From: Hormoscilla sp. SP12CHS1
GTDB lineage: Bacteria > Cyanobacteriota > Cyanobacteriia > Cyanobacteriales > Desertifilaceae
NCBI GenBank assembly: GCA_014324065.1
Contig: JACOMV010000032.1
Span: forward strand, 1 to 32,322
Direction: 5' to 3'
DNA: 32,322 bases
Shown: in pieces, positions 3,761 through 19,488 of the stretch
Numbering within the stretch: position 1 is the stretch's first letter
Layout: every line of letters begins with the position of its first letter
Program-made: the position numbers and the translations under genes
Notes under the pieces: generated by a model
Databases searched by the model: none
Told to the model about the DNA's origin: nothing
Seen by the model: the letters and a program-made list of their open reading frames with translations, nothing else

Positions 3761-4880
3761 CAAAAGGTTCCGCCTAACAGCATCCTAAAAATCCCCTTAT
3801 TCCCCGAGCCAGAACTTCATGCTATTTGGAAGCAATGGATGGCAGCTTATCGCTGGGTTTACAACCAATGCGTAGAGTTCTATAACTCCAACCGAGTGTT
3901 GGCTGAAGGGCAATCTTTAGACCAGTATATACAAGGGTTGCAAAAATTACCAAAAAATCAATGGACAAAATGCTTGGCGTCAATCTTGCAAAGCTAATGG
4001 TGGCAAGATTTTGCTGCGGTTTAGATCCTGTAGAAGCAAATCGCAAGCTATTCAGTTTAAGAATGACGCTTACCGAAATGGCACTTGGTTTACCTCAAAG
4101 ATTGGTAACCGGAAATTCACTGTTGCTAAAGGCTATGAACTGCCCGTTAATTGCGTTTACGGTACGGAACTGGTCTATCAGCGCGGGCAGTGGTTTGCTT
4201 GCTTTCCTCAGTATGTACCAGTAGTAGGTACTGGTTCTAACAAAGTAATTGTGCTCGACCCTGGAAACCGCACTTTCCTGACTGGCTACGATGGTGAAAA
4301 TATCCTATAAATTGGCAAGGGCGACATCGGGCGGCTAACCAGGCTGTGCCTGCACCTTGACAAAATAATCGGGAGAAAAATGAAAGCCACTGGCAAAGCT
4401 AATAAGCGTTTGCAGTACAAACTGAACAAAGCAATTGAGCGGTTGCAGTTTAAGATCCGCTCGCTCGTAGATGACCTACATCGGAAAGCTGCAAGTATGC
4501 TTGTTAATAGCTACAAGCTGATATTTATACCCACTTACCAAACTTCGCAAATGGTCGTCAAAGCCAACCGTAAGATTAATAGAAAGTCAGTTAGAAATAT
4601 GCTTACGTGGGCAATGGGTAGATTTGCTTCTCACTTGGAACAGGCAGCAAAGCGAAAAGGTGTACTAGTAGTGCGCTGTAATGAAGCTTACACTAGCAAA
4701 ACTTGTCCCCTTTGCGGTCACATTCACAAAAAGCTAAGTGGTTTTAAAGTTCACTTTTGCCCGGCTTGCGGTCATAAAGCACGCTCCGGGCCCCCTCCGC
4801 TGCGAGGATTGGGTAGGCGCTCTCAACATCATGTTGAGGGCTTTGCAGGCTGTCGCCTTCGATGTCGGAAATGGCGTTAT
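3735..4880 (+). pseudogene. tnpB: TnpB (IS607/IS605 OrfB, RNA-guided nuclease family), broken
   Basis: Segments in order are 'WMAAYRWVYNQCVEFYNS' at the N-terminus, 'KVIVLDPGNRTFLTGYDG' (RuvC-I with its Asp), 'KLIFIPTYQTSQMV' at the RuvC-II position, and a zinc finger CPLCGH...CPACGH. Intact relatives as I recall them read FETSQ-like at RuvC-II, so the catalytic Glu appears changed to Gln. The reading frame is lost near 3975, has an in-frame TAA at 4308-4310, and is disrupted at the RuvC-III DRD motif by a GC-rich palindromic repeat at 4782-4804. After it, 'WVGALNIMLRAL' resumes in another frame. The gene is dead three times over. The remaining tail to 5058 is an open frame of unknown origin. 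Confidence 0.88.
4782..4804. repeat. GC-rich repeat family B inside tnpB
   Basis: CGCTCCGGGCCCCCTCCGCT replaces the codons of the RuvC-III acidic motif between 'CGHKA' and 'WVGALN'. The same core occurs at about 18187-18210 and 18509-18530, and the opposite arm (GGAGGG...CCCGGGGAGC) at 5088-5113 and 18533-18560. Confidence 0.85.
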
Positions 4881-5058
4881 TACTATTTCTGATGCCGATG
4901 TTATACTTGCGCCTGATATTAGCTTTGTGAGGGTTAAAGGCAGCACAGTGTCACTAACAGAGAAATTCTCAGTCAAGTCAGACAGAATCTCGCTATATGA
5001 GGCTGTACAGCAGCCCGAAGCGATCGCACAATCGGATATTGGGAGTTGGTTGACCTGA

Positions 5059-5398
5059 AAGTGATAGCCCAGTAGCTGGCCCTGAACAGCGGAGGGGGCG
5101 TTACCCGGGGAGCTGGCAGATAGACAAAAATTCTGATATATACGTCACAGATGCTATCATTGTCTTTAGAGGAAAAAGCTACTGAGGAATATTCTGAATA
5201 CCATAAGCAAATTGTAGCTAAATTAGAATGAATTTCAGTCCGGCAGTTGTGGCAGGATCGAAAGTGGGGGATTGAGTAGTGGAATACTAGAGGAATGTAT
5301 TGTCAGTTGTTGATATGCTCCGGTGGTTAATAATAGAAATTATCTCCAACGCAGATTGAATATTTAAAAGAAACCATGAAAAACAAAAAACTATCGTT
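5059..5398. other. Non-coding stretch with a small unplaced gene trace
   Basis: No convincing gene is seen. Bases 5088-5113 carry the arm AGCGGAGGGGGCGTTACCCG of repeat family B. An ATG at about 5151 opens a 26-codon frame, 'SLEEKATEEYSEYHKQIVA', and after its TGA the same direction reads 'SVRQLWQDRKWGIE' before another stop. This looks like residual protein-coding sequence, possibly the end of a decayed gene. I do not recognise the family. Confidence 0.4.
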
Positions 5399-5800
5399 CG
5401 CAAGAAAATCATCCAGAGATCGCCGCTTTTATACAATATGAAGCGAGATGTCCAGAATCATTCAATGTCAACATTCATGCTGATGATGAGATGTTCACCT
5501 TTCTCCTGGATGCCAGGGCGTTCCCAGGCGGAGCCGTGGGAACGAGGGCGATCGAGACCGGGCCCTGTTGGCTTATTTCAAGTCAGGACAAGAGGTCATG
5601 ACCCGAGTAGAGCAAATCATCAATTGGAAGTTTAAGGGCTGGGATAGGATGATGGAATCGGCTTTTCTGGATTTTGCTTGCGGTTACGGGCGGTTTACGC
5701 GATTTTTGGTGCAAGAAATGTCCCTCGATCGCATTTTGGTGTCTGATATTTACTCTGAGGCAGCAAGATTTGTATATAATAGTGCGGGGAGAATACGAAG
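5399..5800 (+). pseudogene. Class I SAM-dependent methyltransferase, fragment
   Basis: The frames read 'ENHPEIAAFIQYEARCPESF', 'NVNIHADDEMFTFLLDA', then, after a palindromic repeat, 'LLAYFKSGQEVMTRVEQI', 'NWKFKGWD', 'LDFACGYGRFTRFLVQEM' and 'VSDIYSEAARF'. FACGYGR is the glycine-rich SAM-binding motif I, and SD-IYSEA is motif II. The layout matches cyanobacterial methyltransferases found near glycosyltransferase or polysaccharide loci. The coding sequence has no clear start, is interrupted by the repeat at 5519-5547 and by a shift near 5653, and stops before the rest of the Rossmann fold. It is a non-functional remnant; the acceptor substrate is unknown. Confidence 0.8.
5519..5547. repeat. Palindromic repeat family C, copy 1 (inside methyltransferase remnant)
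   Basis: CGTTCCCA and TGGGAACG pair around GGCGGAGCCG. Further copies are at 18139-18166, 18455-18483, 24560-24589 and 24691-24726, with half-like versions at 14021-14036 and 24205-24215. This one interrupts the methyltransferase sequence between 'TFLLDA' and 'LLAYFKSG'. Confidence 0.9.
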
Positions 5801-6050
5801 ATAAATTGACTATGGATTTGGGACCGAGAGGATATCTGGATAGTTGTATTTTGAAAGAAAATTATCAACTCAGATTGCAAGTTTGGGCAGCAAATATTCC
5901 TCCTGAAAACATTGTCGAAGAGTTGCGGATAAATGGCAAACTAAAGTAAACTTGTATGCCGAGGCAAGAGCGTCGGGATGTAAGTAATTTTTTTGCAGAT
6001 AAAAGATATCTGCAGAGTGGGTGGGCAACGGAGTGTCAGTTGGAAAAAGC
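5801..6050 (+). pseudogene. Remnant of methyltransferase-associated C-terminal domain, copy 1
   Basis: Across two frames this reads 'GYLDSCILKENYQLRLQVWA', 'PPENIVEELRINGKL' and 'FFADKRYLQSGWATECQL'. The pattern G-x-LD, then L-x-x-WA, then an asparagine-glycine turn, then R(Y/F)-x-x-SGW recurs in the next entry, so this is one repeat unit of a small beta-rich domain often attached to cyanobacterial methyltransferases or glycosyltransferases. The domain's function is not known to me. A stop at 5947-5949 and a frameshift break it. It follows the methyltransferase fragment without a start codon of its own. Confidence 0.6.
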
Positions 6051-6104
6051 AAGTCAGATAGATCGGGACGATCGCCAGCTATCAGTGGGAACAACAAAGA
6101 ATGA

Positions 6105-6594
6105 GTGCTGCACTTGAGTACCTTGGAAAAGGCTTTGTCCGGATCGCTAGCGATCAATAAACAGAATTTGATGACCCAGGTTTTAGAGATAATGGCAGGG
6201 GCTGTAAGCAGTGTAAAACAATTATTATCTGTGGCCCATGACCCCGAAAGCCGGATAAAGGGTTGTCTGGATCGGGTAGTGTGGCAGGGTAACGAACTAT
6301 GGCTGGAAGGATGGGCCTCCGATATCAGCAAGAATGGAAAAATCAAGGAAATTCACATAATAATTAATGGTCAAGCACAACAGAAAAAGATATTCTTTGT
6401 AGAAAGACCGGATGTAGCCAAGTTTATAGGCGATGAACGATTTATAAATTCGGGGTGGATATGTAGATGTGAGTTGACGGCAGATCCAAAGCTGGTAGCG
6501 TAGGGTTCCCGGAGCGTATGGTAGTCAAAGCAATCAATAGCAAAAATGTTGAAAGAGTGCTATATGTGGGTAGCATAGAAGGAGCGTTAAAATT
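6105..6594 (+). pseudogene. Second copy of the accessory domain, truncated and shifted
   Basis: The 132-codon frame contains 'GCLDRVVWQGNELWLEGWAS', 'KIKEIHIIINGQAQ' and 'DERFINSGWICRCEL', the same domain as at 5801-6050. After the TAG at 6501-6503, a shifted frame continues with 'VVKAINSKNVERVLYV' and ends with a TGA just before the aminotransferase start. The N-terminal 45 residues ('LIMTQ'-like helical segment) have no motif I recognise. This is probably the tail of the same multidomain protein as the methyltransferase fragment, or of a paralogue beside it. The frame might still be translated as a short protein, but its C-terminus is displaced. Confidence 0.55.
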
Positions 6595-7770
6595 ATGACA
6601 AGTGGTGGGACGGGAAAAACGATAAGCCATCGAGAAGAGTTTCCGGGGCTGATAAATAAGGCATATTTTAATTATGGCGGACAAGGACCAATGCCGCAAA
6701 GGGCAATAGAGGCGATCGCCGAGTTCTATCACCTGATCCAATATCTGGGACCATTTTCAGGCCAGGTGCATGACTTGCAGGAGTCTTCGGCATTGAGAAC
6801 CAAAGAGGCGATCTCCAGTGAATTGAAGGTACCAACAGCAACGATTACCCTGACGGAAGATGTGACCGTCGGTTGTAATATTGCCATGTGGGGAATGGAC
6901 TGGCGGGGGGGTGATCGCATGTTACTAACGGACTGCGAACATCCAGGTATCGTCGCCACTGCTAAGGAAATTAGCAGGCGGTTTGATGTGGAAGTTTCTA
7001 CCTGTGGGGTGATGGCAACGTTAAATCAGGGCAACCCGATAGAAGTAATTGCTAGTGCGGTGCAACCTACTACCCGACTGGTAATACTCAGTCATATCCT
7101 CTGGAATACGGGTCAAGTATTACCTCTAGCTGAGATTGTTAAAGCTTGCAAATCAGTTAATAGTAATGTCAAGATTTTAGTAGATGCGGCCCAGTCTGTG
7201 GGGATTTTGCCCTTAAATTTAATTGATGAGGGGATTGACTTCTATGCCTTTACGGGTCATAAATGGTGGTGCGGACCAGAAGGCGTGGGTGGTTTATATG
7301 TCAGTCAGGAGGCGAGGGAAGATTTGCATCCCACCTTTATTGGTTGGCGGGGCATAGTCACGGATAATGCTGGCCATCCCGTAGGATGGAAACCCGATGG
7401 AGGCCGGTATGAAATTGCCACATCTGCTTATCCCTTGTATGCCGGGTTGCGCGAGGCTATCGGCCTCCATTCTGCCTGGGGAACGGCCCAAGAACGCTAT
7501 CAACGCATATGTGAATTAAGTGCATATCTCTGGCAAAAATTGACCCAAGTAGAAGGGGTTATCTGCTTGCGGGAATCTCCTCCTCTATCGGGTTTAGTTT
7601 CCTTTCAGCTAGCTAATAAAAAGCATTGCCAGCTAGTGAAATTTTTGGAGACGCAGAATATTATGGTACGGACAATTCGCGATCCGGACTGCGTGCGTGC
7701 TTGCGTTCATTATTTTACCTTAGAGTCGGAAATAGAGCAATTGGTATCGCTAATTGCTAATCAATATTAA
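6595..7770 (+). CDS. Aminotransferase class V-fold PLP enzyme (cysteine/cystine lyase or desulfurase-like)
   Basis: The 391-residue protein has the fold-type I PLP layout: 'AYFNYGGQGPMP' at the N-terminus, a 'CEHPGIV' substrate-side histidine, 'LVDAAQSVG' with the ring-nitrogen Asp, and the Schiff-base Lys223 in 'FTGHKWWCGPEGVGGLY'. The GHKWW context and missing NifS-type mobile cysteine loop resemble the Synechocystis cystine C-S lyase (C-DES) and isopenicillin N epimerase-like proteins more than IscS or SufS. It probably acts on a cysteine-like amino acid in the cytoplasm. AAGGAG lies upstream of the ATG with usual spacing. The gene is intact although every gene for 4.5 kb upstream is decayed, so it seems to be under selection. 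The exact substrate is uncertain. Confidence 0.8.
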   Translation: MTSGGTGKTISHREEFPGLINKAYFNYGGQGPMPQRAIEAIAEFYHLIQYLGPFSGQVHDLQESSALRTKEAISSELKVPTATITLTEDVTVGCNIAMWGMDWRGGDRMLLTDCEHPGIVATAKEISRRFDVEVSTCGVMATLNQGNPIEVIASAVQPTTRLVILSHILWNTGQVLPLAEIVKACKSVNSNVKILVDAAQSVGILPLNLIDEGIDFYAFTGHKWWCGPEGVGGLYVSQEAREDLHPTFIGWRGIVTDNAGHPVGWKPDGGRYEIATSAYPLYAGLREAIGLHSAWGTAQERYQRICELSAYLWQKLTQVEGVICLRESPPLSGLVSFQLANKKHCQLVKFLETQNIMVRTIRDPDCVRACVHYFTLESEIEQLVSLIANQY

Positions 7771-7807: not shown

Positions 7808-10800
7808 TTAGCCTCGTTGCCTGGCTCCGCCTGGTAACGCGGGAGTCAATTGGAGATACAAACAGGGCACGATTAAAAGAGAGATCGCAGTTGAGGCCGT
7901 CAAGCCAAAGGCGATCGCCATGCAGAGGGGAAACCAGACCGGAGCGCTCAGGGCCAAGGGAACCACACCCGCGATCGTGGTAATACTGGTAGTCAGGACA
8001 GGACGCAGGCGATCGCTTGCCCCATGTGCAGCAGCAGAACGCAGGTTCATGCCCCGTCGGCGATGAGAATTCATCGTTTCTACCATGACGATCGAGTCAT
8101 TGACGACTATTCCCGTCAGAGCGATAATCCCAATTACCGCCGGGAAAGATATCGGGATCCAGAACAGAAAGAAGCCGCCAAAAGTGCCGATCAAAGCGAA
8201 GGGAATAGCTAGCATAATAATGAAAGGCTGGGTGAAAGAGCCAAACTGAATCACTAGGACAGCAAAGACAAGGAACAGCGCCAAACCTGCCATCTGTCCC
8301 GCCGAACCAAAAGTCTCGCTTTGGGTTTCCGCTTCTCCGCCGAACTTGTAGTCATAGCCCCCGGGCCAGCGGCGCTGCATTTTCTGCAACTGCGGTTCCA
8401 AATCTGCTAAAATCTCCCCGACCGTGCGACCTTTGGTCTTCGCCAAAACCGTGACCGTGCGTTGGGCATCTTGGTGGGTAATGGACAAAGGTGCTTGATC
8501 GAACTGGATTTCGACTACTTGGGAGGCGGTAATTGACCCGTCTGGGGAGAAGAAACGAGTCATCATCAGTTCCTCCATCTGGGTGGGTCCGCCAACTGCT
8601 CCACCACGGGAAGGCCATTTTGTACTGAGGTGAATTTCTAGGTCTTCCTCTCCACCCCCGATCGGGAAATCGCCGATATCGTTATTAGTCATCAGGTAGC
8701 GCCCCTGGAGGGAGAAATCTTCTGGAGTAATGCCATAGAAGTTCATTGCTTCTCGGCGGGGACTGAGTTTCACGTCCGGTCGTTCCGGACCCAGGTCGTC
8801 GCGGACATCTGCTGTTCCCCGAATCTGTCGCAAAGCTAGCTGCACGTCCCCAGAAATGCCGCGCAACAGGTCCATGTCGCTGCCCGTTAGCTCAATGGCG
8901 ATCGGGTCTCCAGCTTCTCCCGATCGCTCAAAGTTCACTACTAAAGACGTCCCCGGATAGTTGCGAACGAGCGCTTGTAACTCCGACCGCAGGGGGTCTA
9001 TATATTCAAAGGACAATTTTTCGCGTTCTGCTTGAGGTACAAACATTGCCGAAAAGCCCACTAGGTAGTTGCCCGTGCTAGGTTTGATGCCGCTTTCTTG
9101 TACTAGGTTACTGCGCTGACCGACGAATTTGACTACCGTTTCCAAGTAATCCTTGCTCCGCAGAATTTCCCCCACTTCATCTGCTAATATTTGGGAACTG
9201 TCGAGGGTAGTAGTGGGGGGCAGTTCGATGTTGATGCTCAATTTGAGTTTGTCCGAGTCGGGAAACAGAGTTCCCGGTATGTTTCCCACCAGAATTGTCG
9301 TGCAGACAAACAAGGCGATCGCCCCCATAGTCCAAAGGCGGGCAGTAGTTTTGTTGCGGACAGTGGAGCGCAAACTCCAATGGATAAACTTCTCGGAAGC
9401 GGCTTCCGTAAGTTTGTCAATGAAAGTCTTTTTCGCGCCGCCTTTGACATTAGCGAGGAGGTAGCGGGAGAGAGGGATATCTACAAAGAGGGCGATCCCG
9501 TAGCTGATTAGCAAGCAAGTAATGGCACTAATGGGAATCAAGCGGATAAATTTGCCCATGGTGCCGCTAATTGCCATCAAGGGGGCCATGGCCAGGATTG
9601 TAGTCAACTGACCGGAAAAAGCTGGCACTGCGTAGGTTTTAACAGTTTTCAAGGCCGATTGCTCGAAAGACAGACCTTCAACGAAAATCCCATCGTGCAT
9701 CCCTTCCATCATCAGGATGAATACATCTACAAGGAGTCCCAGGGCGAGGATCAGACCCACTTGCACCATCGTGTTCAGAGTGTTGCCGAATATCCAAAGG
9801 ACCGCGATCGCCCCCAGAAAGGTGAGGGGAATAGACAGGCCAGCGATGATGGCTTCGCGCCAACTAAGGGCCAACAATAATACGATAAAGACGGCCAAAA
9901 CTCCTTGCCAAGCATTATTAAATAGATTCTGCAGTTCCTCGTTGATGATATCTGCATCCGTACTGACGATCTGGTATTCCATCCCGTAGGGCCAGATTGA
10001 GGGATTTTGTCTGGCCTGCTCTAGGGCTGCTAGGCAATCATTAATCACTTTAATTGTATCCGAACCCGGTACCTTGACTACATCCACGTTAATTACCGGT
10101 TTAAACTCCCCCCCATTACCACTAATAAAAGCGCGAGTCTGTTCTCGTTCCAGGTCGCGACGGACTTCTGCTACTTCTGAGAGGTACACCACCCTTCCTT
10201 CCGTACCCCCCAGGCGGGTGACCGGTAAACTGCGCAGGTCGGCTTCGGTTCTAAAGCGACCGTAATAACGCACTTGCCTGCCTATTTGGTCGCTCTCTAT
10301 CTGGTCCCAGGGCAGGTCTCGGTTGCCTCCGGTAATCGCATCTCTCACCTGAGTCGGAGAAATATTCAGAGTCAGGAGGCGATCGGGCAGCAGCTGCACG
10401 TGGATGACCTCTTTGCGATCGCCACTCAGGTCAACTTTTCTGACATTGGGGACTTTTTCTAACAGTTCTTCGATCTCTTCGGCAGCGCGACTCAGGACTG
10501 CCTGGTCGATATTGCCAAACAGGCCCAGGCTGAGAACGGGGGTATCTTGGGCCGATATTTGCTCGACTTTGGGCTCTTCGGCGTCCGAGGGCAAATTCAA
10601 CTCTGCCGAAGCTTCATCGACTTCTGCTCTCACCTGGGCGATCGACTCTGCCACCGGAGCTTCGACGCGGAATTCAATTTTAATTTGCGAACGGCCATCG
10701 AATGAGGCACTACTGAGTTCCTTGAGTCCCTTGAGGGATTTGAGTTCTTTCTCTAGCTTATCCGTGACCTGGTTCTCGATCGTTTCTGGATCTGCACCTG

Positions 10801-10993
10801 GCCAAATAGTCGTCACGTTGGCTAAGGCTTGATTGATATCTGGGTCCCCTTCTTTCACCATTGTCGCCGCTCCTATCAGCCCTCCTATTACCAATAGGAC
10901 GCACAGGAGTATGGCAAAAACCGTGTTCAGGAAAAAGAACTTGGCGATCGGGGATGCTTTGCTGACATCGGGAACATCATGTTCTTCGTTCAT
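7808..10993 (-). CDS. RND-family efflux permease (AcrB/HAE1-like inner-membrane pump)
   Basis: At 1061 residues this has the full RND length and order: a first membrane helix at about residues 18-44, a large periplasmic loop, helices TM2-TM6 from about 360, a second periplasmic loop, and TM8-TM12 near the end ('PFALIGTFGGFFLFWIPISF', 'IALTGIVVNDSIVMVE'). It would export hydrophobic compounds or metal-type substrates using the proton gradient together with the adaptor encoded upstream. The TM4 motif reads 'GLLVDVFILMMEGM' where AcrB-type pumps have GLLVDDAIVV, so one of the paired proton-relay aspartates (position 424 here) is Val. The last codons, 'PALPGGARQRG' and the stop, lie in a palindromic repeat, so the original C-terminus was probably replaced. 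No outer-membrane factor is present nearby. Confidence 0.93.
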   Translation of the reverse strand: MNEEHDVPDVSKASPIAKFFFLNTVFAILLCVLLVIGGLIGAATMVKEGDPDINQALANVTTIWPGADPETIENQVTDKLEKELKSLKGLKELSSASFDGRSQIKIEFRVEAPVAESIAQVRAEVDEASAELNLPSDAEEPKVEQISAQDTPVLSLGLFGNIDQAVLSRAAEEIEELLEKVPNVRKVDLSGDRKEVIHVQLLPDRLLTLNISPTQVRDAITGGNRDLPWDQIESDQIGRQVRYYGRFRTEADLRSLPVTRLGGTEGRVVYLSEVAEVRRDLEREQTRAFISGNGGEFKPVINVDVVKVPGSDTIKVINDCLAALEQARQNPSIWPYGMEYQIVSTDADIINEELQNLFNNAWQGVLAVFIVLLLALSWREAIIAGLSIPLTFLGAIAVLWIFGNTLNTMVQVGLILALGLLVDVFILMMEGMHDGIFVEGLSFEQSALKTVKTYAVPAFSGQLTTILAMAPLMAISGTMGKFIRLIPISAITCLLISYGIALFVDIPLSRYLLANVKGGAKKTFIDKLTEAASEKFIHWSLRSTVRNKTTARLWTMGAIALFVCTTILVGNIPGTLFPDSDKLKLSINIELPPTTTLDSSQILADEVGEILRSKDYLETVVKFVGQRSNLVQESGIKPSTGNYLVGFSAMFVPQAEREKLSFEYIDPLRSELQALVRNYPGTSLVVNFERSGEAGDPIAIELTGSDMDLLRGISGDVQLALRQIRGTADVRDDLGPERPDVKLSPRREAMNFYGITPEDFSLQGRYLMTNNDIGDFPIGGGEEDLEIHLSTKWPSRGGAVGGPTQMEELMMTRFFSPDGSITASQVVEIQFDQAPLSITHQDAQRTVTVLAKTKGRTVGEILADLEPQLQKMQRRWPGGYDYKFGGEAETQSETFGSAGQMAGLALFLVFAVLVIQFGSFTQPFIIMLAIPFALIGTFGGFFLFWIPISFPAVIGIIALTGIVVNDSIVMVETMNSHRRRGMNLRSAAAHGASDRLRPVLTTSITTIAGVVPLALSAPVWFPLCMAIAFGLTASTAISLLIVPCLYLQLTPALPGGARQRG
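7815..7839. repeat. Palindromic repeat family A, copy 2 (3' end of RND gene)
   Basis: CGTTGCC and GGTAACG arms flank TGGCTCCGCCT. Read on the minus strand it encodes the end of the pump protein, with the TAA at 7808-7810 immediately behind. ATTAGCCTC next to it also accompanies the repeats at 19939 and 23551. Confidence 0.85.
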
Positions 10994-11262: not shown

Positions 11263-12858
11263 CTATTCAATCACCTCCACGGGGGCTCCATCCACGAGAC
11301 TATTTTTTCCCTCAGTCACGAGCTGTTCCCCTGGTTGAACGCCATCGATAATTTCCCGTTGGGAGATGCCACGAATGCCCGTTTTTATCTGGCGCTGTTC
11401 TACTATTTTCTCTTGTTGATTAACTACAAAAACATGAGGTTTTTGGTCCCTCCATACAAAAGCATTGAAGGGAGCAGTTGTAGCATTCAACTTTTCTTCT
11501 ACGGCGATCCAAGCCGAAACGCGAGCCCCATTCTTGAGGTTTTGGGTGCCTTTATTTACCCTGATTTTTACCTCGATCGCCCGACCCCCTGGAGTCACTG
11601 AAGGACTGACAGAGAAGACAATCCCTTCGGCACTAGCCAAATCTATCAGATCTGCGCTCGTCATAGCTTCAGGGCTGTGAAGCCGTTCGTTGGCAATAAT
11701 GAACGCGCGTTGACCCGTTCTGACCCTAGCACCATCGAAAGCAGGCAATTCTACATCGACCTCAAACTCATTCGGGTCGATCGCGATTATCGGCACGGAC
11801 TCTACTATCTGCTGATAGTCACCTGTGGCATTGATCCGCTGGGGCGTCCAATAGTCCCCTTCTTTGATGTTGAGATGGGCGATAATGCTGTCAAAAGGGG
11901 CGACTATCTCCGTGTCTTCCAGGATGACTTGGGTTTTGTTCAGGGAGGCGATCGCCGATTTAATTCCCGACTGCGCTGATTCTACCTGGGCCTGTTGGGA
12001 TAAGACTGCCGCCTGAGCTGAAGAGACAGCGCTCGACGCTGCCCTTATTCCTGCATCTGCCGCTTTCACCTGCGCTCGTGCAGCTTCAACCGCCGCTTGA
12101 GCTTCCGCAAACTGGGTTTCTCTGGTGTCCCGCTCGCTCTTCGATACGACGCCGTCTTCCCAAAGTTTCTGGTAGCGGTTAACATCGGTCTGGGCGAAAT
12201 CGCGATTAGCTTCAGCTCTTTTCAAGTCCGCTTGGGCAGACGCTAAAGAAGCTTCCGCTCTTGCTTTTTCAGCTTGGGCCTGACTCACCGCCGACTCCGA
12301 CTGCCTTAAAGAAGCCAGGGCCGTACTCAACCGCTGCTGGGCATCCTGCCGCTGGGCCTGGGCCACCGTCACATCCGAAGCCAGTTTGCGAGGGTCTACC
12401 TGGGCTAGCAGGTCCCCTTTTCTCACAAAATCCCCCGTTCGCAGCTCGCGGCCATTTACCTTCTTCACATAGACGATCGTCCCTTCTGCCTCAAAAGTGA
12501 GATGCTTGCGGAGCACCGCCTCCACAAAACCGTCGCTGAATACCCAAGCTTGGATCGGGGCTATTTGCGCCCGCGCTGCCCGCACTGGTAGTTTCGCCAC
12601 CGTGGCCGCCGCACTTGCCTCTATCTGTGCTGGCTGATTTTTCAGGCGGTGGGAGGCGATCGCCCCTACTCCTAACACCACTGCTACTAATGGGACCATC
12701 CACAGGAGCCTACGCGCCAGCGATAGTTTTCCCTTACCCCCATAGGCATCATTTTCTGCGCTGGCAGGCGAGACGCCCGCCCTACGCAATTCTCTTGTGT
12801 CCCGTGAAGCTTCTACCACACTTACTTTTTCCTTGTGGGTTACATCCGATGTTTCCAT
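11263..12858 (-). CDS. RND efflux periplasmic adaptor subunit (HlyD/AcrA-type membrane fusion protein)
   Basis: The 531-residue protein has an N-terminal anchor 'LLWMVPLVAVVLGVGAIASH' at about residues 51-70 and a lipoyl/barrel-sandwich half near 'EGTIVYVKKVNGRELRTGD'. A very long Ala/Gln-rich coiled-coil hairpin follows (about 165-305). The second lipoyl half is near 'VAPFDSIIAHLNIKEGD', followed by beta-barrel and membrane-proximal domains. It would bridge the RND permease downstream to an outer-membrane channel not encoded here. AGGAGG precedes the ATG by eight bases. Residues about 27-35 ('RRAGVSPAS') are encoded by an imperfect palindrome typical of intergenic repeats, inserted in frame into the cytoplasmic N-terminal tail, where it is unlikely to harm function. 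Confidence 0.92.
   Translation of the reverse strand: METSDVTHKEKVSVVEASRDTRELRRAGVSPASAENDAYGGKGKLSLARRLLWMVPLVAVVLGVGAIASHRLKNQPAQIEASAAATVAKLPVRAARAQIAPIQAWVFSDGFVEAVLRKHLTFEAEGTIVYVKKVNGRELRTGDFVRKGDLLAQVDPRKLASDVTVAQAQRQDAQQRLSTALASLRQSESAVSQAQAEKARAEASLASAQADLKRAEANRDFAQTDVNRYQKLWEDGVVSKSERDTRETQFAEAQAAVEAARAQVKAADAGIRAASSAVSSAQAAVLSQQAQVESAQSGIKSAIASLNKTQVILEDTEIVAPFDSIIAHLNIKEGDYWTPQRINATGDYQQIVESVPIIAIDPNEFEVDVELPAFDGARVRTGQRAFIIANERLHSPEAMTSADLIDLASAEGIVFSVSPSVTPGGRAIEVKIRVNKGTQNLKNGARVSAWIAVEEKLNATTAPFNAFVWRDQKPHVFVVNQQEKIVEQRQIKTGIRGISQREIIDGVQPGEQLVTEGKNSLVDGAPVEVIE
12763..12781. repeat. Short imperfect palindrome inside adaptor N-terminus
   Basis: GGCAGGCG-AGA-CGCCCGCC is an 8-bp stem with one mismatch and a 3-base loop. 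It encodes part of 'RRAGVSPAS' in frame before the membrane anchor. I recognise this type as a common translated intergenic repeat in cyanobacteria. Confidence 0.55.
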
Positions 12859-14236: not shown

Positions 14237-16302
14237 TTAGTCGGACAAACGTTCTTGACAACGATCTAGATAAATGCGGGCTACTGGATCTGCGGGGTTT
14301 TGGCGCAAGCAATCGGCAAACATTTGGGCGGCTTTATGGATAGACTTGCGATAGTATAGCAGTAAACCTTCTTCAAATATTTTGATGGTCTCTAATTTCG
14401 CCTGTCGCAGTTCGGGAGGATCGCCGTCAAAGACTTCAAAGACGGCCACCTATGAAAGATTTTCCCTTCACTTTCACCCGACCGATCAGGCGCATCTTAT
14501 ACTGCATGGGGTCTGACAAACTGGCAAAAGTATAGTAAGAGATTAACAAAGACACTCCATAGGTTTTGGTTAAGTTTTCTAAGCGAGATGCTAAATTGAC
14601 AGCATCGCTAATGACAGTGCTATCCATGCGGGAATGTCCCCCGATCGTCCCCAGCATCAGAGAACCTGTATTGATGCCAATGCCGATTTTCACCGGTGGA
14701 TAACCAGAATTGGCGCGATGTTGATTATATTTTACTATACTTTGCAGCATACCAACTCCGGCATTAACAGCATCATCGGCGTTGCCGCTAAAAAGTGCCA
14801 TAATTGCATCGCCAATGTATTTATCAATAAAGCCATGATTTTCGAGAATCACGGGTTCTAGGCGAGAAAGATAGGAATTGATAAATTTGAAATTCTGCTC
14901 CGGTGTCATGGTTTCACTTAGGGTAGTGAAGTCGCGAATATCATAAAATAAAATCGACATCTCCTGCTGGACTTGATCTCCTAATTGGACACGACAATGC
15001 TTTCTTTGTGCAAAAACTGGAGAAATTCCCGGGGGACAAAGCGACTGTAGGCGATATTGAGAGTAGATATGCGCAGATGAGTTTTTATTCTGGCTAGGAG
15101 CGTTTTTGGAAATGGGTTTAGTCAGATAATCATTGGCACCAGCATTAAATCCTTCTACTAGATTGTTGACTTGATTTTTGGCGGTTAACATGACCACAGG
15201 GAGTTCGTTGGCTGGGAACTAATCGCGGATTTTATGACAGACTTCATAGCCAGTCATGCGCGGCATCATCACGTCTAGTAAGACTAGGTCGGGTTTGAAA
15301 CCCCGATCGAGCATTGATAAAGCATCTAGACCATTCTCGGCCAGGGCGAGACTATAATTTTCTAGGGAAAGATGGTTGACCAGTACCTGAAGATTCACTG
15401 GCTCATCATCAACTATCAGGATTTTGAACTGATGAGGCTGTTGACCGTTGACTGTTAATTGTTGATTGTTGCTTTGTGCTGGCTGGTGCATTATGCTTTC
15501 ACGCCAATTGACGATCGCGCGATCTGTGACGGTGGCGGGGCGATCGCTTGTTTTCGGGGCTCTGCCTGGGGCTAATGGTAGGGTAAAGGTAAACCGGGTG
15601 CCCTCGCCCACGATCGAGGAGACGCCAATTTCTCCCCCGTGCAATTCTATTAGCTGTTTGGTGATGGTTAAGCCTAAACCGGTGCCTCCGTATTCCCGGG
15701 CTGTGGAACCGTCCGCTTGTTCAAAAGATTCAAAGATGCGGTCTAATTTATCCTTGGGGATGCCGATGCCAGTATCGGACACGGAAATTGCTAATTGTTC
15801 GTTGTCGATCGTCGAGCCAGCATTGCCATCAACTATGAAGGATGGACCGTGAATAGTCTTGGCGGAGATTTCCACCATGCCGCTATTGGTGAACTTGATG
15901 GCATTGCCCACTAGGTTGTGCAGAATCTGTTGCAGGCGATTTTCATCGGCATATACTAGAGATAGCTCCTCGGGAATAGCGTTAATTAGCTGCAAATCTT
16001 TGTTGCCAACCAGAGATTGGCTGAGGGAAATCACAGAGTCGGCGATTTCTCGGATCCCCACTGGCTTGAGTAACTATATGGGGCGTCCCTAGGTAACTGC
16101 GCAGTTTTTGGTCAACCCGATCGGTTATTTCGCTACGCAGTTGGGTGGCGACATCGTTGACGGCTGTTTGCCCCTTTTTAATCGAGAGATATCCCGTCAG
16201 CCCCACCGCCGCACAGATCTGGAGCACGAAGGGTACGACCAGGACCGTGCGCAGGTGAACTTTTTCAGAAAATTTAGAAATTAAGTGGTTTAGAGATTGC
16301 AT
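14237..16302 (-). pseudogene. Sensor kinase-receiver-adenylate cyclase fusion, decayed
   Basis: The N-terminal piece (16302 to about 16075) has a membrane helix 'VLVVPFVLQICAAVGLTGYL' and the start of a periplasmic sensor, ending at 'YLGTPHIV'. A large deletion then joins it to 'PVGIREIADSVISLSQSLVG', losing the rest of the sensor, the HAMP/PAS region and the histidine phosphorylation domain. A HATPase follows ('DENRLQQILHNLVGNAIKFT', 'DTGIGIPKDKL', 'GGTGLGLTITKQL'), then a receiver ('LLDVMMPRMTG'). An in-frame TAG (15219-15221) splits the receiver. A compensating pair of shifts lies at about 15000-15100. A class III cyclase domain ('ILFYDIRDFTTLSE', 'DKYIGDAIMALF') and a shifted C-terminal helical tail (14237-14449) complete it. 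The cyclase residues look intact, so a partial product from an internal start is conceivable. Confidence 0.88.
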
Positions 16303-18650: not shown

Positions 18651-19082
18651 TCAAGCTTCTTCAATATGGTGTACCCAGGAAATATTGAGGTTTCTGGCAG
18701 CATCAGCAATTCGCCGATCTGCTGTCCAAAATTCTGCCTCTTGGGACTCAGCTAAGGCAAGGTAGGCAGCATCATAGGCGACGATCTGATTCAGTCTCCC
18801 TGCCCAAATAAGCGCTTGTTGGTGAAGTGCAGGCGTGGGCGGTACTTGGGGAATGTTCATAGATAGAATATCTTGCATATCTTCTACCGCCTCTTCAGAA
18901 GAAATACTCCTGGTTGCAACAGCCTTGCGGAGAGTGGAAGCTACCTCATAAGACCATAAGGTAGGCACTAGCAGTTCTACATTTTGCTGTTCCCATTCTG
19001 CCATCTTGTCGATCGCGGCTTGGGAATAGGGTAGAGAAATCACTAGCGCTATGAATATATTTGAGTCTGGCATGATTTTCAT
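18651..19082 (-). CDS. PIN-domain ribonuclease toxin (VapC type)
   Basis: The 143-residue protein is a PIN domain. 'MPDSNIFIALVI' carries the first catalytic Asp, 'WSYEVASTLRKAV' the Glu, 'VAYDAAYLALAES' the third acidic residue, and 'WTADRRIADA' the last. All four residues are in place, so it should be an active metal-dependent RNase toxin. The start codon overlaps the antitoxin stop as ATGA (19079-19082), the usual translational coupling for such pairs. The length is normal for VapC proteins. The target RNA is unknown. Confidence 0.9.
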   Translation of the reverse strand: MKIMPDSNIFIALVISLPYSQAAIDKMAEWEQQNVELLVPTLWSYEVASTLRKAVATRSISSEEAVEDMQDILSMNIPQVPPTPALHQQALIWAGRLNQIVAYDAAYLALAESQEAEFWTADRRIADAARNLNISWVHHIEEA

Positions 19083-19372
19083 GGTTCACCTCTCATTACC
19101 TTGTCAATTTGTTTTTCTCGTTCGGCCCGGACTTCGGCAACTAGATCCCCTGGATACATACCGTGCTGGCGATGGTATTTGATGCGCCGCTGGGTTAAAC
19201 GATCAAGGATTTCCAAGTTGTGCTGTTTTTGCTTTTCCCGAGTTTCTAGCCCTAAGCGCACCATTTCTTGTGCTAGATCGGAAATGCTGCGACCTTCTTG
19301 ACTGGCCATTTGGGCGAGGGTTTCATATTGTTCTGGAGCCAATAGCACATTATGAGTAGCGGTTTTTGTCAT
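19079..19372 (-). CDS. Ribbon-helix-helix-like antitoxin of the PIN toxin
   Basis: I choose the start at ATG 19372 ('MTKTATHNVLLAPEQYETLA') rather than 19426. GAAGAGGTCGAG sits directly before it as ribosome binding site, and the 18 extra residues of the longer frame look untranslated. The protein is then 97 residues: an N-terminal ribbon-helix-helix-like DNA-binding part ('LLAPEQYETLAQMASQEGRS', 'ISDLAQEMVRLGLE') and a charged C-terminal tail that would wrap the toxin. It would neutralise the toxin and repress the shared promoter, as is usual in the family. It overlaps the toxin gene by four bases. Confidence 0.85.
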   Translation of the reverse strand: MTKTATHNVLLAPEQYETLAQMASQEGRSISDLAQEMVRLGLETREKQKQHNLEILDRLTQRRIKYHRQHGMYPGDLVAEVRAEREKQIDKVMRGEP

Positions 19373-19488
19373 CTCGACCTCTTCACTATCTGAACTATTG
19401 CTTCTATTGTAGATTATAGCTAGCATGGATGGATATTGTCAAGTCTCCAAGAAACCGGGTTTCTGGGTATGAATAATTCTCGATCGCT

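Follow-up and report, generated by a model that had tools for sequence, protein, structure and literature searches.

A conserved RND permease of Hormoscilla with a single aspartate at the TM4 proton-relay site

In the proton relay of AcrB, cycling protonation is best supported for D408, without which export is abolished (PMC8277102). A 2017 review describes D408 as less conserved than D407, gives a single acidic residue for many members of the superfamily, and states that K940, where lost, has probably been lost along with D408 (PMC5719797). In the metal exporter CusA the relay consists of D405, E939 and K984; D405 is indispensable, and transport proceeds with no second Asp in TM4 (PMC8092243). 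MmpL3 uses D256-Y257 and D645-Y646 (PMC11524445), and like CusA it is considered a proton-driven transporter (PMC8092243; PMC11524445). The HME pumps for monovalent metals have a single TM4 Asp, and one RND group of uncertain function lacks K940 (PMC2891726). If D408 is the residue that cycles in AcrB, single-Asp pumps would have to use the D407 equivalent or another acid.

The permease studied here, P0001, is encoded by an intact ORF of 1061 aa at positions 7808-10993 (minus strand) of a 32,322-nucleotide stretch of Hormoscilla sp. SP12CHS1 (contig JACOMV010000032.1), hereafter the window. It matches the Pfam ACR_tran model PF00873 over essentially its full length (residues 16-1048, 533.1 bits for a cut-off of 28), and a weak match to SecD_SecF_C (31.5 bits) is confined to its C-terminal TM region. 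The G-x3-D-x6-E pattern of TM4 is present (G419-x3-D423-x6-E430), and the best sequence match in the PDB is MexK of P. aeruginosa. All HAE-1 models of NCBIfam score P0001 far under their cut-offs, including the curated multidrug models TIGR00915 (258 vs 940.35 bits) and NF033617 (423 vs 1250), as does the HME model TIGR00914 (249.8 vs 701.45 bits). With the curated models for HAE-1 and HME both below threshold, P0001 can be filed only as a member of an uncharacterised RND subfamily. On its sequence, P0001 is an RND superfamily permease that lacks both residues expected of HAE-1 pumps, D408 and K/R940. An AlphaFold model built from 14 sequences had a mean pLDDT of 55.7, too poor for geometry or a fold search, and was used for no more than locating helices at 408-438 and 950-979.

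Upstream of P0001, across a gap of 269 bp, lies a gene for a periplasmic adaptor (membrane fusion protein) of the HlyD/RND type (531 aa; 11263-12858, minus strand), which scores 146.9 bits against TIGR01730 (RND_mfp; cut-off 94.9). An adaptor homologue adjoins the permease gene in all 13 relatives examined, in divergent orientation in one of them (G008); over all sources the figure is 69 of 82, with several of the others ending at a contig edge. This recurrent pairing leads us to regard the family as an adaptor plus permease exporter. The adaptor was the sole consistently linked gene: the neighbourhoods gave no consistent hint of a substrate, rarer neighbour clusters included a TetR-type regulator (9 loci), and no gene for the outer-membrane factor of a tripartite efflux system was seen among the window ORFs scanned. 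At one locus of a same-genus genome (L027, G001:C6:102000-120000), the adaptor homologue is broken into two reading frames (5387-6421 and 6580-6990), which suggests a frameshift or decay.

The window holds other genes of separate interest. At 14436-16061 (minus strand), a hybrid histidine kinase/receiver/nucleotide cyclase-like gene has an in-frame stop inside its receiver domain, after which the same frame continues. A short ORF at 4380-4892 (plus strand) contains a Cas12f1-like TNB domain and is probably what remains of a TnpB-type transposon protein. A PIN-domain protein at 18651-19426 (minus strand) is preceded by a ribbon-helix-helix protein, the two resembling a VapBC toxin-antitoxin pair.

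Relay residues were numbered by aligning P0001 with AcrB and CusA, both read from the E. coli K-12 record. The TM4 segment of P0001, LALGLLVDVFILMMEGMHDGI, reads GLLVD423-V424-FILMMEGM. D423 (codon GAT, 9725-9727; this and the following codons are on the minus strand) aligns with AcrB D407 and CusA D405 and is the retained proton-site Asp of TM4, whereas V424 (GTA, 9722-9724) aligns with AcrB D408 and CusA A406. The preliminary description of this locus was thus right that Val occupies the D408 position. The positions given there, 9725-9730, encode V422 (GTA, 9728-9730) and D423, and are off by one codon from the substituted one. In TM10, N965 (8099-8101) aligns with AcrB K940 and CusA E939, so that the positive charge is absent, and it is Asn in all 89 relatives covering the position; the neighbouring D966 (8096-8098) aligns with AcrB N941. 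R971 and T978 of AcrB TM11 are kept as R995 (8009-8011) and T1002 (7988-7990), the latter aligning also with CusA T987. The relay predicted from this alignment cannot be the D407-D408-K940 triad of AcrB; D423, V424 and N965 instead fit the single-Asp relay without K940 described in PMC5719797.

The valine is a real and conserved feature of the family. It is kept in 93 of 93 relatives of more than 40% identity, as DVF in 89 and DVY in 4, and homologues from same-genus MAGs (89-90% identity) have the identical motif. A scan of a contig collection with two patterns, DVFILMM and WREA[IL]IAG, gave 80 loci; its counts are biased towards the motif, although the DVY members, found with WREA[IL]IAG only, still have Val. 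Because DVFILMM was itself a search pattern, the unbiased evidence for conservation is that of the whole-genome searches: 12 of 59 related genomes and 5 of 386 genomes sampled throughout the phylum hold a family member of at least 59% identity, and all those read, the 12 related genomes included, have DV. At 87 distinct loci all four Val codons are used at this position (GTG 33, GTA 24, GTC 17, GTT 13), and the segment GLLVDVFILMMEGMH hardly varies between cyanobacteria and Planctomycetota in spite of synonymous codon turnover. This pattern reflects purifying selection on the valine. A sequencing or assembly error at the codon, which the preliminary description had named as a possible way out, is ruled out by the 93 relatives, the four synonymous codons and the two base changes that separate GTA from an Asp codon.

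Loss of D408 is also common outside the family. Our survey covered 253 RND proteins, taken as HMM-selected ORFs, 160 of which fall outside the family and come from cyanobacteria and from eight genomes of other phyla. D408 is absent in 51 of these 160 (N in 25, G in 14, S in 6, A in 5 and P in 1). Val at this position was found in none of the 160 and is in this sense specific to the family. D407 is present in 252 of the 253 proteins, and Arg occupies the R971 position in 247 of the 248 proteins covering it. The only protein without D407 is an RND-like frame from a proteobacterial bin (L243, G418:C231:93-3131, minus strand), whose TM4 reads GILVTNSIVV and has neither D407 nor D408; it would be a stronger anomaly than V424 of P0001. 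The expectation that D408 loss is unusual, and that coupling may differ on that account, is not borne out by these numbers or by the characterised single-Asp pumps; CusA (D405-A406) and MmpL3 (D256-Y257) largely supply, in kind, the proton-driven precedents that would speak against it. Judged against these comparisons, V424 is an ordinary, well-conserved family trait, neither a defect nor a surprise.

The state of position 408 tends to go together with that of position 940. Lys or Arg is found at 940 in 92 of the 109 non-family RNDs with D408 vs 1 of the 51 without it, and, after redundancy reduction at 60% with the family included, in 41 of 54 vs 1 of 34. Fisher's test gives tiny p values for this association, although it takes no account of relatedness. 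The tree shows at least 6 changes at 408 and at least 2 at 940, and an independent-pairs sign test gave a median p of 1, with only 4 independent pairs on supported branches; with so few independent events, significant covariation under phylogenetic control could not be claimed. What is defensible from the sampled proteins is that D408 has changed several times and that its absence is nearly always accompanied by absence of the positive charge in TM10. P0001, with V424 and N965, fits this co-absence. Paralogues in the host genome show both states (VDD with TKN in L002, VDN with VNN in L001), and the host's own SecD reads VDA at the TM4 position (GMAVDANV). One exception was sampled: L177 (G105:C212:1461-4544) is the sole RND with Asn at 408 yet Lys at 940 (VDN with GKN).

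We consider it likely that P0001 is the inner-membrane permease of an adaptor plus RND export system, driven by protons through a single-Asp relay. The direct basis for this reading is the residues themselves, their conservation across the family, the co-absence of D408 and K940 in the sample and the adaptor partner. D423 would be the essential protonation site and, as neither the D408 carboxylate nor the K940 ammonium is present, the net charge of the buried cluster would stay approximately balanced. The properties of D423 may be tuned by N965 and D966 in TM10 and by R995 and T1002 in TM11. As in other RND pumps, its protonation from the periplasm would drive a rearrangement of TM4 and TM10, and release of the proton to the cytoplasm would reset the protomer. 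From this we infer that export of a substrate is coupled to protons, that the trimer rotates and that each protomer passes one proton per cycle, with the D407-type Asp alone presumably equivalent to the relay of AcrB. The abolition of transport by D408N in the AcrB/MexB context (PMC5719797; PMC8277102) could be taken to mean that P0001 has degenerated or is uncoupled and acts as a passive or regulatory RND-like protein. This is very improbable given the intact ORFs, the near-invariance of GLLVDVFILMMEGMH under synonymous turnover and the retention of the D407 and R971 and T978 equivalents together with the adaptor.

The preliminary description proposed looking for a compensating acid in TM10, and D966 is indeed there, although it is not obligatory. 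Position 966 is Asp in 72 of 89 relatives and Asn in 17, with at least 8 switches between the two, and V424 is unchanged in the Asn members. D966 is thus not a required compensation. A TM10 Asp also occurs together with a retained D408 in 15 of the 160 non-family RNDs, and since this separate group has both, the TM10 Asp and the loss of D408 are not coupled. Obligatory compensation by D966 was rejected as a rule on both counts, and D966 may still take part in the relay. Among the charged helix residues examined, the only other buried acid that never varies within the family is E430, which is common to nearly all RNDs; D505, which lies towards the cytoplasmic end of TM6, is enriched (69 of 93) and not fixed.

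The presence of D966 raises the possibility that the lost TM4 carboxylate is replaced functionally in TM10, the relay being split over the two halves of the protein as in SecDF. TM10 of P0001 reads GIVVND and resembles GFSVND of the SecF of its own genome, which is paired with the GMAVDANV of SecD; the predominance of Asp at 966 and the weak SecD_SecF_C match are in line with such an arrangement. The Asn members with their unchanged V424 and the non-family RNDs that combine a TM10 Asp with D408 speak against it, and we regard it as unlikely. It is doubtful that the DV[F/Y] clade as a whole has a pseudo-symmetric split relay whose second carboxylate, D966, is optional in some members; if it did, the clade would offer a natural series for one vs two protons per RND cycle. 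A coupling ion other than H+, for example Na+, is suggested only by the departure of the relay from that of AcrB; no Na+-site signature was identified, and the single-Asp pumps CusA and MmpL3 are driven by protons according to published work (PMC8092243; PMC11524445), which makes another ion the least probable of the functional alternatives.

The likely single-Asp, proton-driven exporter has partial counterparts among described systems. With the HAE-1 pumps AcrB and MdtB/MdtC of E. coli and MexK of P. aeruginosa, P0001 has in common the PF00873 fold family, the 12-TM layout, the equivalents of D407, R971 and T978 and an adaptor partner; it differs from them in lacking D408 and K940, it is about 20-28% identical to sampled RNDs of this kind, and its family and AcrB with MdtB/C lie on different sides of the tree. 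CusA, an HME pump, shares the single TM4 Asp (D405-A406), and its proton relay works without D408, but P0001 has N965 for E939 and, by motif alignment after RVRP, V999 at the K984 site, and it is placed away from CusA in the tree. The RNDs whose TM4 has VDN and whose TM10 has VNN (L001, L021-L024 among them) likewise have D407 only, no K940 and the same TM10 VN motif, but Asn rather than Val at 408 and 25-29% identity to P0001. A group with TM4 VDD and TM10 VNDS (L259, L260, L265 and others) has N940 and D941 and, as in P0001, no K940, but keeps D408; it is possibly the type of uncertain function without K940 (PMC2891726). SecDF resembles P0001 in having one TM4 Asp (SecD), Asn-Asp in TM10 (SecF) and Arg in TM11, and differs in consisting of separate SecD and SecF proteins with other periplasmic domains that serve in protein translocation, whereas P0001 is a full-length ACR_tran protein. 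The HAE-2 protein MmpL3, compared from its published description (PMC11524445), has a single TM4 Asp followed by a non-acid (D256-Y257) and an Asp in the other half of its relay (D645), but belongs to a mycobacterial lipid transporter family with a different periplasmic part.

The relatives of P0001 form one clade on a long, fully supported stem of the RND tree, and identity falls to 29% for the next-nearest RNDs outside it. The suggestion of a distinct cyanobacterial subfamily holds as regards a distinct, supported clade; "cyanobacterial" is too narrow, since of the best 80 loci of the collection scan 70 are from Cyanobacteriota and 10 from Planctomycetota, Nitrospirota, Thermodesulfobacteriota, Myxococcota, Pseudomonadota or unassigned bins. 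Cyanobacterial carriers of the family include Leptolyngbya sp. PCC 7375 and Acaryochloris marina MBIC10699. A family member 60% identical to P0001 adjoins an HlyD gene on plasmid pREC2 of Acaryochloris marina (L287, NZ_AP026077.1), typed as conjugative, and carriage of this sort may help to account for the patchy distribution of the family.

The best reading of these comparisons is that P0001 represents a conserved, putative single-Asp RND exporter of an uncharacterised subfamily; the observation of the missing D408 is true and its significance low. The DD-K triad of AcrB is not a rule for RND permeases, and a missing D408 should not be taken as a defect. Because D408 is the residue best supported as cycling in AcrB (PMC8277102), a clade in which position 966 is naturally Asp in some members and Asn in others, with Val at 408, is well suited to a test of proton stoichiometry.
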